Below are positions 24,921-38,988 of a stretch of 64,000 bases of DNA, piece after piece. This DNA comes from an uncultured Sediminibacterium sp. (lineage in GTDB: Bacteria; Bacteroidota; Bacteroidia; Chitinophagales; Chitinophagaceae), in contig CALDSE010000012.1 of assembly GCA_937911175.1 (NCBI GenBank), forward strand, positions 1 to 64,000. Direction: 5' to 3'. The position numbers and the translations under genes are program-made. How positions within the stretch are numbered: position 1 is the first letter of the stretch; the number at the start of each line of letters is the position of its first letter. The notes below the pieces were generated by a model. The model saw nothing but the letters and a program-made list of their open reading frames with translations. It did not search any database and was not told the DNA's origin.

Positions 24921-25907
24921 ATGTACTTATACAGTTTTATCAAATCTATTGGAAGGTTAACGCTTAAAACCTTTTCAGGTTTAAAGCAGTCCGAAAAATG
25001 GGCTAGGGCTTATTTACATACAGTAGAAGTAAAATTTGATGGAAAATTTGATCAAAAAACCATAGAGAAAACTGTAAAAAGATATAGCATTCAACAACAT
25101 TTTATCAACGATAGTTTTAGCAGTTTATATGGTCGTAATAATAATATAAATGAAAAGGAAAGAAATTTACTTTATTTTATAATGGCTTCAGTTTATGACG
25201 ATTTTTTTGACGATAAAACTTTAACCCTTGAACAGATAGACGCTATATTTTATCATCCAGAAGAATATAATGCAAAAACATTTTTTGAAAAAGTATTTAT
25301 TTATACGCATACTCGTTTATTAAACGATGTTGCAGATAGAACTCAATACTATAAAGACTTTGAAGAACTTCATATTGCCCAAAAAGATTCCTTAGAACAA
25401 TTCAATCCAAATGTGAGTGACGAGACTCTTTTATCTATTACTACTAGAAAAGGCGGCTACTCTTTACTTATGTGCAGACATTATTTAGATACCCCCTATC
25501 TTCCAGAAGCAGATGCTTGTTGGTATGCCTTAGGAGGTGTTATTCAACTCACCAACGATTTATATGATATATATAAAGACATGCAAGAAGGTATCATTAC
25601 ACTTGCTATAAGAGCTAAGCAGCATGAAACTATTTATGCACTATTCCATAAGCATGCACAGGCCTTAAATGAAAGTATAAGAAAACTTCCTGTAACGAGT
25701 ACCCGTAAAAGCGATATATCTATTATATTAAATGTAATTGCTGCTTTTGGTTATGTAGCTTTAGATAACCTTGCACGCTTACAAGGGAATAAGGCTTCTT
25801 TACCTGCATTTGAAACCTTGCCCAGAAAAGAATTGATCATTGATATGGAAAAAAATGCAAACCGATTCAAATTATTAAAGTTCACTTACCAAAATGCGGG
25901 CTTATAA
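24921..25907 (+). CDS. Class I isoprenoid-synthase-fold-like protein (squalene/phytoene-synthase-like motifs)
   Basis: All-helical composition; first Asp-rich motif VYDDFFDDK; second motif ALGGVIQLTNDLYDIYKDMQEGI, resembling squalene/phytoene synthase QLTNxxRDxxED. Confidence 0.65.
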   Translation: MYLYSFIKSIGRLTLKTFSGLKQSEKWARAYLHTVEVKFDGKFDQKTIEKTVKRYSIQQHFINDSFSSLYGRNNNINEKERNLLYFIMASVYDDFFDDKTLTLEQIDAIFYHPEEYNAKTFFEKVFIYTHTRLLNDVADRTQYYKDFEELHIAQKDSLEQFNPNVSDETLLSITTRKGGYSLLMCRHYLDTPYLPEADACWYALGGVIQLTNDLYDIYKDMQEGIITLAIRAKQHETIYALFHKHAQALNESIRKLPVTSTRKSDISIILNVIAAFGYVALDNLARLQGNKASLPAFETLPRKELIIDMEKNANRFKLLKFTYQNAGL

Positions 25908-25976: not shown

Positions 25977-26648
25977 ATGGAAATTAAAATGGAAACAAGT
26001 TGGAAAAATGCTTTGTCGGATTTATTCGATAAGCCCTATTTTAGCCAAATTGCCGACCATTTAAAAGCCGAAAAAGCATTAAAAACAACAATCTACCCTA
26101 GTGGTGGTCTTATTTTCAATGCATTTAGCTTAACCCCCTATGATAAAGTAAAAGTAATTATTTTAGGACAAGACCCCTATCATAATGCAAACCAAGCAAT
26201 GGGTTTAAGTTTTTCTGTGCCCGATGGAATTAAGCCACCCCCTTCTTTAGTGAATATATTTAAAGAACTACATAAAGATATTGGTATGCCTATTCCAATT
26301 ACAGGTAATTTAACTACTTGGGCTAAACAAGGGGTTCTATTATTAAATGCAGTACTAACGGTGAGGGCTAATGAACCTGCAAGCCATGCTAAAATTGGAT
26401 GGACTAAGTTTACGGACGATGTAATTCTATCACTTTCATCCCAAAAAACGGGCTTGGTTTTTATTTTATGGGGTAATTTCGCACAAGAAAAAATTAAACT
26501 CATAGACAGTTCCAAACATAAAATTTTAAAAGCAGCACACCCTTCCCCCTTTAGTGCTTATAATGGTTTTTTTGGTTGCAAGCATTTTAGTGCTGCCAAT
26601 GAGTACTTAGTAAAAAATAATATAGATCCCATTGACTGGGCCATTTAA
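25977..26648 (+). CDS. ung: Uracil-DNA glycosylase, family 1
   Basis: VIILGQDPYHNANQAMGLSFSVPDG; LKAAHPSPFSAYNGFFGCKHFSAAN. Confidence 0.95.
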   Translation: MEIKMETSWKNALSDLFDKPYFSQIADHLKAEKALKTTIYPSGGLIFNAFSLTPYDKVKVIILGQDPYHNANQAMGLSFSVPDGIKPPPSLVNIFKELHKDIGMPIPITGNLTTWAKQGVLLLNAVLTVRANEPASHAKIGWTKFTDDVILSLSSQKTGLVFILWGNFAQEKIKLIDSSKHKILKAAHPSPFSAYNGFFGCKHFSAANEYLVKNNIDPIDWAI

Positions 26649-38022: not shown

Positions 38023-38988
38023 TTATTGATTTCTATTCATTAAATAATTCGCCAATTCAATTAAAGGCTTTTTGCGATCAGATACCACTGCAATAGATTC
38101 TAAATGCGCAAAGGCTTCTTGCATATATTTTGCTTTAGAGGCTTCTGCCCAGGCGTCCACTCCACAAGATTTAAAAATGGCTAAAACTTTTTCTACTTTA
38201 TCGGGCGGATTGGAATTTAATAATTCATTTAATTCTTTTTTCTGAGCAACATTCGCTACTTCCAATGCATGTATTAATAAAAATGTTTTTTTATTTTGTT
38301 TGATATCGCCTCCTGGCTCCTTGCCAAAAATGGCGGCGTCTCCAAAAGCATCTAAATAATCGTCCTGCACTTGAAAGGCAATACCTATTTTTTTTCCAAA
38401 CTCATATAAGTGTTGGCAATTATTCACGCTGGCTCCTCCTAAGATGGCACCCATTTCTAAACTCGCTGCTAATAGTACAGAAGTTTTTAAGGTAATCATA
38501 TGTATATACTCATCCATACTTACCTTTTCCAATTTTGAAAAGTCCATGTCTAATTGCTGGCCTTCACAAACTTCTTTAGCAGTCTTATTAAATAGTTGTA
38601 AAATCTTAGGTAAATATTGAGCCTGTATGGTTTGAATATACTCATAAGCGCGAATAACCATTACATCGCCTACTAATAAGGCAGTGCTATTGTCATATTT
38701 AACATGCACGGTGGTTTTGCCTCTTCTTAAGGAAGCCTCGTCCATCATATCGTCATGCACTAAAGTGAAATTATGAAATAACTCCACTGCATTGGCTAGC
38801 TGGTAAGCATCGGAATGAATATCAGAGAATAGTTCATTACCCAATAAACACATCACAGGTCTAATTCTTTTACCACCAATACTTAAAAAGTAATTGCCTG
38901 GTTCATATAAGCTGGCAGGCGATTTTGGGAAGTGTTCGGCCTCGAATCCCTTATTAAATTTTTCTGATAATTCTTTAAAACTATGCAT
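38023..38988 (-). CDS. Polyprenyl (trans-isoprenyl) diphosphate synthase
   Basis: GGKRIRPVMCLLG, LVHDDMMDEASLRRGKTTVH (DDxxD), FQVQDDYLDAFGD. Confidence 0.93.
   Translation of the reverse strand: MHSFKELSEKFNKGFEAEHFPKSPASLYEPGNYFLSIGGKRIRPVMCLLGNELFSDIHSDAYQLANAVELFHNFTLVHDDMMDEASLRRGKTTVHVKYDNSTALLVGDVMVIRAYEYIQTIQAQYLPKILQLFNKTAKEVCEGQQLDMDFSKLEKVSMDEYIHMITLKTSVLLAASLEMGAILGGASVNNCQHLYEFGKKIGIAFQVQDDYLDAFGDAAIFGKEPGGDIKQNKKTFLLIHALEVANVAQKKELNELLNSNPPDKVEKVLAIFKSCGVDAWAEASKAKYMQEAFAHLESIAVVSDRKKPLIELANYLMNRNQ

Follow-up and report, generated by a model that had tools for sequence, protein, structure and literature searches.

The gene at positions 24921 to 25907 (plus strand) of the window, the 64,000-nucleotide stretch of DNA analysed here, raises the question of what kind of enzyme its product, P0001, is. 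An earlier note had described a 328-aa open reading frame with two acidic motifs at this site, and this was confirmed. The reading frame starts with ATG, and stops occur throughout the opposite strand. The first motif, VYDDFFDDK, covers aa 91–99 and the second, ALGGVIQLTNDLYDIYKDMQEGI, covers aa 203–225, ~115 residues further on.

Against six close orthologues (80–88% identity), dN/dS was 0.10–0.24, meaning purifying selection. The gene for P0001 is therefore functioning and kept under such selection. A chance origin of the motifs was ruled out by these values and by the conservation of the motifs in homologues.

P0001 is quite probably a stand-alone, single-domain, non-canonical class I terpene synthase. 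The fold behind this reading is a prediction, and we infer the chemistry.

Predicted fold and putative active site

The AlphaFold2 model of P0001, based on a 72-sequence alignment, was all-helical (pLDDT 95.1, pTM 0.92). In a Foldseek search against the PDB, every one of the best 50 matches listed was a class I isoprenoid synthase, at a probability of about 1.00. The lowest E-value belonged to the dehydrosqualene synthase CrtM (3.8e-4). The order differed for the target-normalised TM-score: it was highest for Sat1646 (0.62), a reference class I terpene synthase, followed by the ent-kaurene synthase BjKS (0.58–0.59) and CrtM (0.51–0.55). As the Foldseek TM-scores were moderate overall (0.4–0.6), they indicate fold membership, not close kinship. 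The predicted structure thus had the alpha-helical class I fold of canonical terpene synthases. The earlier note had staked its reading on a class I isoprenoid-synthase fold and on the conservation of both acidic motifs in homologues; model and Foldseek search agreed with the former, and the 72-sequence alignment agreed with the latter. The fold match implies that D93/D97 and N212/D216/D220 would face one cavity.

The 72 homologues in the alignment were 19–88% identical, and residues were counted over up to 75 aligned sequences. Eight positions were invariant in the 72-sequence alignment (E78, D93, Q160, K177, Q209, D213, D220 and D308), and D97, N212, D216 and R302 were each conserved in at least 90%.

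In this homologue alignment, the putative first metal-binding motif is D93-D94-F-F-D97 (positions 25197–25211, plus strand), a DDxxD motif as in canonical terpene synthases (DDxxD/E). D93 was found in all 74 sequences covering the position and D97 in 73 of 74 (one Glu). Position 94 was less strict, with D in 57 and N in 12 sequences.

The putative second metal-binding motif, placed by the alignment and by hhalign, is N212-D213-L-Y-D216-I-Y-K219-D220 (25554–25580, plus strand). N212 was present in 71 of 75 sequences (Asp in the other four), D213 and D220 in 75 of 75, D216 in 74 and K219 in 68. Judged by its letters, NDLYDIYKD reads as an NSE-triad variant of NDxxSxxKE, with Asp for Ser and Asp for Glu.

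Upstream of this motif, K177 (25449–25451, plus strand; Lys in 75 of 75 sequences) is a candidate diphosphate sensor. It stood opposite the Lys of 'EGKSG' in an alignment with octaprenyl diphosphate synthase. The diphosphate sensor is Arg in canonical terpene synthases and Lys in trans-prenyl synthases. Near the C-terminus, R302-K303-x-x-x-x-D308 (25824–25844, plus strand) is, by its position, a candidate equivalent of the RY pair: R302 follows N212 by 90 residues, and in the canonical set the RY pair follows the NSE Asn by 89 (R312 and N223). R302 was found in 71, K303 in 63 and D308 in 74 of 75 sequences.

Family membership and rival readings

A Pfam and NCBIfam search with P0001 itself gave no match at E ≤10, and membership of a canonical family by HMM was ruled out on this basis. 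The 72 individual members reached, at best, 6.7e-5 for PF00348, 0.0037 for PF03936, 0.015 for PF19086 and 0.026 for PF00494. All four weakly matched families are class I isoprenoid-synthase families. We then compared the P0001 profile by hhalign with alignments of trans-prenyl synthases, squalene/phytoene synthases (SQS/PSY) and canonical terpene synthases, all taken from relatives of the window's genome. The E-values were 0.00035 for canonical Chitinophagaceae terpene synthases, 0.04 for trans-prenyl synthases and 0.055 for SQS/PSY. This ranking is evidence, not proof, as these are single-comparison E-values and the probability for the best family was 37%. In the pairing with canonical terpene synthases, DD lay over LDD and NDLYDIYKD over NDLFSLxKE.

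The consensus of the NSE/DTE triad is [N/D]Dxx[S/T]xx[K/R]E (PMC7839719). NDLYDIYKD sits at the same position in the hhalign comparison and departs from this consensus. The Arg sensor and the RY pair were also missing, with K177 invariant and R302 followed by Lys. All of these departures were family-wide: Asp replaces both Ser/Thr and the final Glu, and Lys stands in for the Arg sensor (Lys177) and follows R302. P0001 stayed below the Pfam cut-offs of PF03936 and PF19086, as did the best members. By strict consensus, P0001 is not a canonical terpene synthase, yet its residues suggest that it most likely works like one. Since its profile is nearest to canonical terpene synthases, we assign it to a non-canonical class I terpene-synthase family and not to SQS/PSY or the chain-elongating prenyl transferases. 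Of the two proposals in the earlier note, a cryptic terpene cyclase fits best, and the head-to-head prenyl synthase is not favoured because of the nearer terpene-synthase profile and a second motif without the Arg-Asp of SQS/PSY.

Further points counted in favour of a terpene synthase were that the genome has two prenyl diphosphate synthases but no canonical terpene synthase, that the family changes rapidly although its neighbours are conserved, and that the operon-like linkage to a gene for a DxDD terpene-cyclase-like protein recurs in four or more parts of the synthase tree. The points counted against it were the missing Pfam and NCBIfam matches, the imperfect NSE triad, the Lys sensor, the RK in place of RY, the moderate TM-scores, the low hhalign probability (37% for the best family) and the fact that some members matched PF00348 best.

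This last point belongs to a rival reading, in which P0001 is a trans-IPPS-type prenyltransferase (chain elongation or prenyl transfer to another acceptor) and QLTNDLYD is a second DDxxD motif. The PDB profile search found an octaprenyl diphosphate synthase (E 0.012), in whose alignment K177 paired with its Lys and QLTNDLFD with QMFDDIMD; nine members matched PF00348, and UbiA prenyltransferase genes adjoined the synthase in three loci. P0001 shares the fold, the upstream Lys and DDxxD with trans-IPPS (PF00348). What it lacks are the IPP-binding residues: K40 and R43 of GKRxR and R88-R89-G90 (RRG) were invariant in the local trans-IPPS family, but P0001 has no GKRxR and no RRG past the first motif, where D97 is followed by D-K-T-L-T-L-E-Q. 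Moreover, the second motif began with Asn in 71 of 75 sequences, like NSE triads, and the hhalign match was weaker than that of the terpene synthases. We therefore regard this reading as improbable. Less probable still is a squalene/phytoene-synthase-like head-to-head enzyme. It would account for the best Foldseek E-values, which belonged to CrtM, and P0001 shares with SQS/PSY (PF00494) the fold, the QLTN string and a similar DxxxD spacing. The profile similarity was, however, the weakest of the three families, and CrtM fell behind the terpene synthases in target-normalised TM-score (0.51–0.55 compared with 0.58–0.62). The Arg-Asp of QxxNxxRDxxxD, invariant as R174-D175 in the SQS_PSY family of the window's genome, was replaced by Y/F-D216 in the P0001 family. 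Both identities were thus set aside, as their profiles matched less well and the residues that define them are missing.

An inactive or repurposed class I fold would fit a family that departs from every motif consensus, evolves fast and is present in only about one-third of genomes. Against this, the metal ligands and K177 were almost never substituted across sequences only 19–40% identical, and dN/dS was 0.10–0.24. We give this reading as little credence as the head-to-head enzyme.

With a non-canonical class I terpene synthase as the preferred reading, catalysis would proceed as follows. D93 and D97 on one helix and N212, D216 and D220 on another would bind three Mg2+. These ions would hold the substrate, an allylic prenyl diphosphate (FPP or GGPP most likely), by its diphosphate. 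K177 and R302 would contact the diphosphate. Ionisation would then release PPi, and the carbocation would be cyclised or quenched inside the helical barrel.

Canonical bacterial class I terpene synthases (PF19086/PF03936; Sat1646, BjKS and the Chitinophagaceae diterpene synthases of PMC12723471) share with P0001 the predicted alpha fold and DDxxD. They also share a second motif at the NSE position, in which N, D and K are kept, and an Arg ~90 residues on. They differ in having NDxxSxxKE, an Arg sensor and RY, where P0001 has NDxxDxxKD, Lys and RK and remains below all Pfam cut-offs. The non-canonical classes IB–IF (BalTS, AsR6 and PeuTPS) were found by structure-based mining and escape sequence models (Abe et al. 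2024, PMC11234867). P0001 resembles them in having a class I-like fold where sequence models fail, and the genes of IB–IF are often outside terpene clusters (PMC11234867). The motif comparison covered IB and ID; IE (SalTPS) and IF (NpsTPS) lay outside it. The class IB motifs DYLDNLxD and DY(F,L,W)IDxxED (PMC11234867) were not found in P0001. Class ID (PeuTPS) was suggested by D(N/D) and ND, which P0001 has as D93-D/N94 and N212-D213, but PeuTPS carries a separate RxxKD ~48 residues past ND. No RxxKD was found after these motifs in P0001, and class ID was ruled out.

A DxDD protein encoded next to the synthase in relatives

In 18 of the 72 synthase loci, an adjacent gene encoded a protein of ~390 aa. 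It was downstream on the same strand in 16 of the 18 cases, with gaps of 3–78 bp or an overlap, and convergent in the other two. Examples are L072:6641-7801 (minus strand) and L214:4853-6013 (plus strand), besides 17 other adjacent copies. D-x-D-D, the class II acid motif, was invariant in all 18 adjacent copies. It was also present in 13 of 13 further homologues, mostly at unlinked sites and mostly as PDDxDDT, compared with 5 of 89 ORFs of comparable length taken as background. Second, unlinked DxDD copies were seen in many Chitinophagaceae.

None of the five members tested had a Pfam match. A profile search against the PDB gave no match either, i.e. sequence homology to known class II cyclases was not detected. 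The AlphaFold2 model of the partner (pLDDT 85.8) matched the drimenol synthase AsDMS (2.7e-9) and squalene-hopene cyclase (4.4e-4) in Foldseek, with unrelated alpha-barrels at 3.9e-3 or worse. The predicted structure had the class II beta-domain fold. In AsDMS, the beta domain protonates FPP via DxDTT, a DxDD variant (PMC9128629). It is the partner, and not P0001, that is like AsDMS (PMC9128629) and squalene-hopene cyclase in predicted fold and DxDD(T). Unlike AsDMS, the partner has no HAD domain; it has an apparent signal peptide and no Pfam match.

The adjacency of synthase and partner was spread over four or more separate parts of the synthase tree, with four to five label changes, at least three of them forced by the starred branches. 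Adjacency occurred once in the window's own genus (L214, with a 21-bp gap). Across the family, a DxDD gene was present anywhere in 41 of 69 genomes with the synthase and in 8 of 131 others (Fisher p 2e-16, a statistic that ignores shared ancestry). Among the 61 genomes of the window's genus, both genes were found in one, the synthase only in 18 and the DxDD gene only in 28. This near mutual exclusion, in contrast to the co-occurrence across the family, may reflect lineage-specific loss or different partners. Two loci (L079:7849-9906 and L090:6919-9006) had tandem synthase copies followed by a DxDD gene, and the two copies came from different branches of the tree.

The statement in the earlier note that the gene lies outside any known terpene cluster holds for the window. 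In the wider family, however, the synthase is often paired with the class II cyclase-like DxDD gene. The adjacent protein would, in many relatives, probably share either the product or the substrate of the synthase. No DxDD partner was found in the window's genome, so P0001 probably acts alone on FPP or GGPP.

A strongly hydrophobic N-terminus was found in 16 of 18 DxDD proteins, many with A-Q just after it, and P0001 has no such N-terminal signal. In Bacteroidetes, Sec signal peptides follow a Q-rule (PMC5837995). The N-termini of the DxDD proteins fit Sec signal peptides under this rule, and the proteins are apparently exported, as far as can be read from their sequences. Since cytosolic diphosphates would not be readily available to an exported cyclase, an order with class I first and class II then acting on a neutral product is likelier. 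The Bacillus YtpB-SqhC system is a precedent for this order (PMC7839719). It is conceivable, if rather doubtful, that a terpene pathway is divided between the two sides of the inner membrane. A cytosolic class I synthase would make a neutral terpene, which the periplasmic DxDD beta-domain cyclase would protonate and cyclise. Such a pathway would share its order with YtpB-SqhC, but its second enzyme would be extracytosolic and from an undescribed cyclase family.

Neighbourhood, distribution and meaning

In the window, the synthase lies between a cytochrome c gene upstream and ung-plsC downstream. These were judged to be ordinary neighbours, and no terpene cluster was found. The earlier note was also right that no other terpenoid gene is nearby: there is none within the surrounding 10 kb. 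The junction between the synthase gene and ung (uracil-DNA glycosylase; 25977–26648, plus strand) is conserved in the genus, but we regard ung as a neighbour and not as a proposed functional partner. Of 12 further loci examined in the genus, 7 had the order synthase-ung-plsC-lptD. In six of these (L218, L219, L220, L221, L222 and L224), the stop codon of the synthase gene overlapped the beginning of ung by 1–10 nt. This overlap suggests that a terpene enzyme and a DNA-repair gene are translationally coupled at this conserved site. Several genes that often adjoin the synthase in relatives (pruA, glmU-like, tpiA and prfB) were judged to be plain synteny. UbiA-type prenyltransferase genes were located directly upstream of the synthase in L050, L056 and L061, with two of them in L061. 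In four of four genomes found in another family of the phylum (L113–L116), lepA adjoins the synthase homologue.

The polyprenyl synthase named in the earlier note at 38023–38988 is real and lies on the minus strand. It is a trans-prenyl diphosphate synthase (PF00348 match 7.9e-79) and one of two PF00348 prenyl synthases in the window's genome, which also has one SQS_PSY gene. Neither a PF19086 canonical terpene synthase nor a PF13243 (SQHop_cyclase_C) class II cyclase was found in this genome. It is possible that the synthase at 38023–38988 supplies the allylic diphosphate substrate to P0001.

In a whole-genome search of 200 sampled Chitinophagaceae genomes, 69 (~35%) had a homologue, with identities down to ~24%. 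Within the window's own genus, 19 of 61 genomes had the synthase, compared with only 11 of 396 genomes from across the phylum. Plasmid-borne relatives were not found in this material. The more distant same-site synthases in the genus were 38–47% identical to P0001, and the neighbouring genes about 68–78%. As the synthases diverge more than the genes around them, the synthase is fast-evolving in a fixed place. Rapid change between conserved neighbours is what product-diversifying enzymes would be expected to show.

No description of a Bacteroidota family with such features, or of its DxDD partner, was found in the open-access literature, which is not proof of absence. What is new is that a DxDD class II cyclase-like gene adjoins the synthase in relatives. 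This linkage makes the function testable by co-expression. Export of the DxDD protein, if true, would raise the question whether terpenes are cyclised outside the cytosol, and if the pathway is split, the window's genus would hold species that keep only one half of it. As with classes IB–IF, terpene genome mining by sequence models misses the P0001 family. Present in about one-third of sampled Chitinophagaceae, including a 2-Mb freshwater genome, the family would be an enzyme lineage not yet explored and a probable source of new terpenes.
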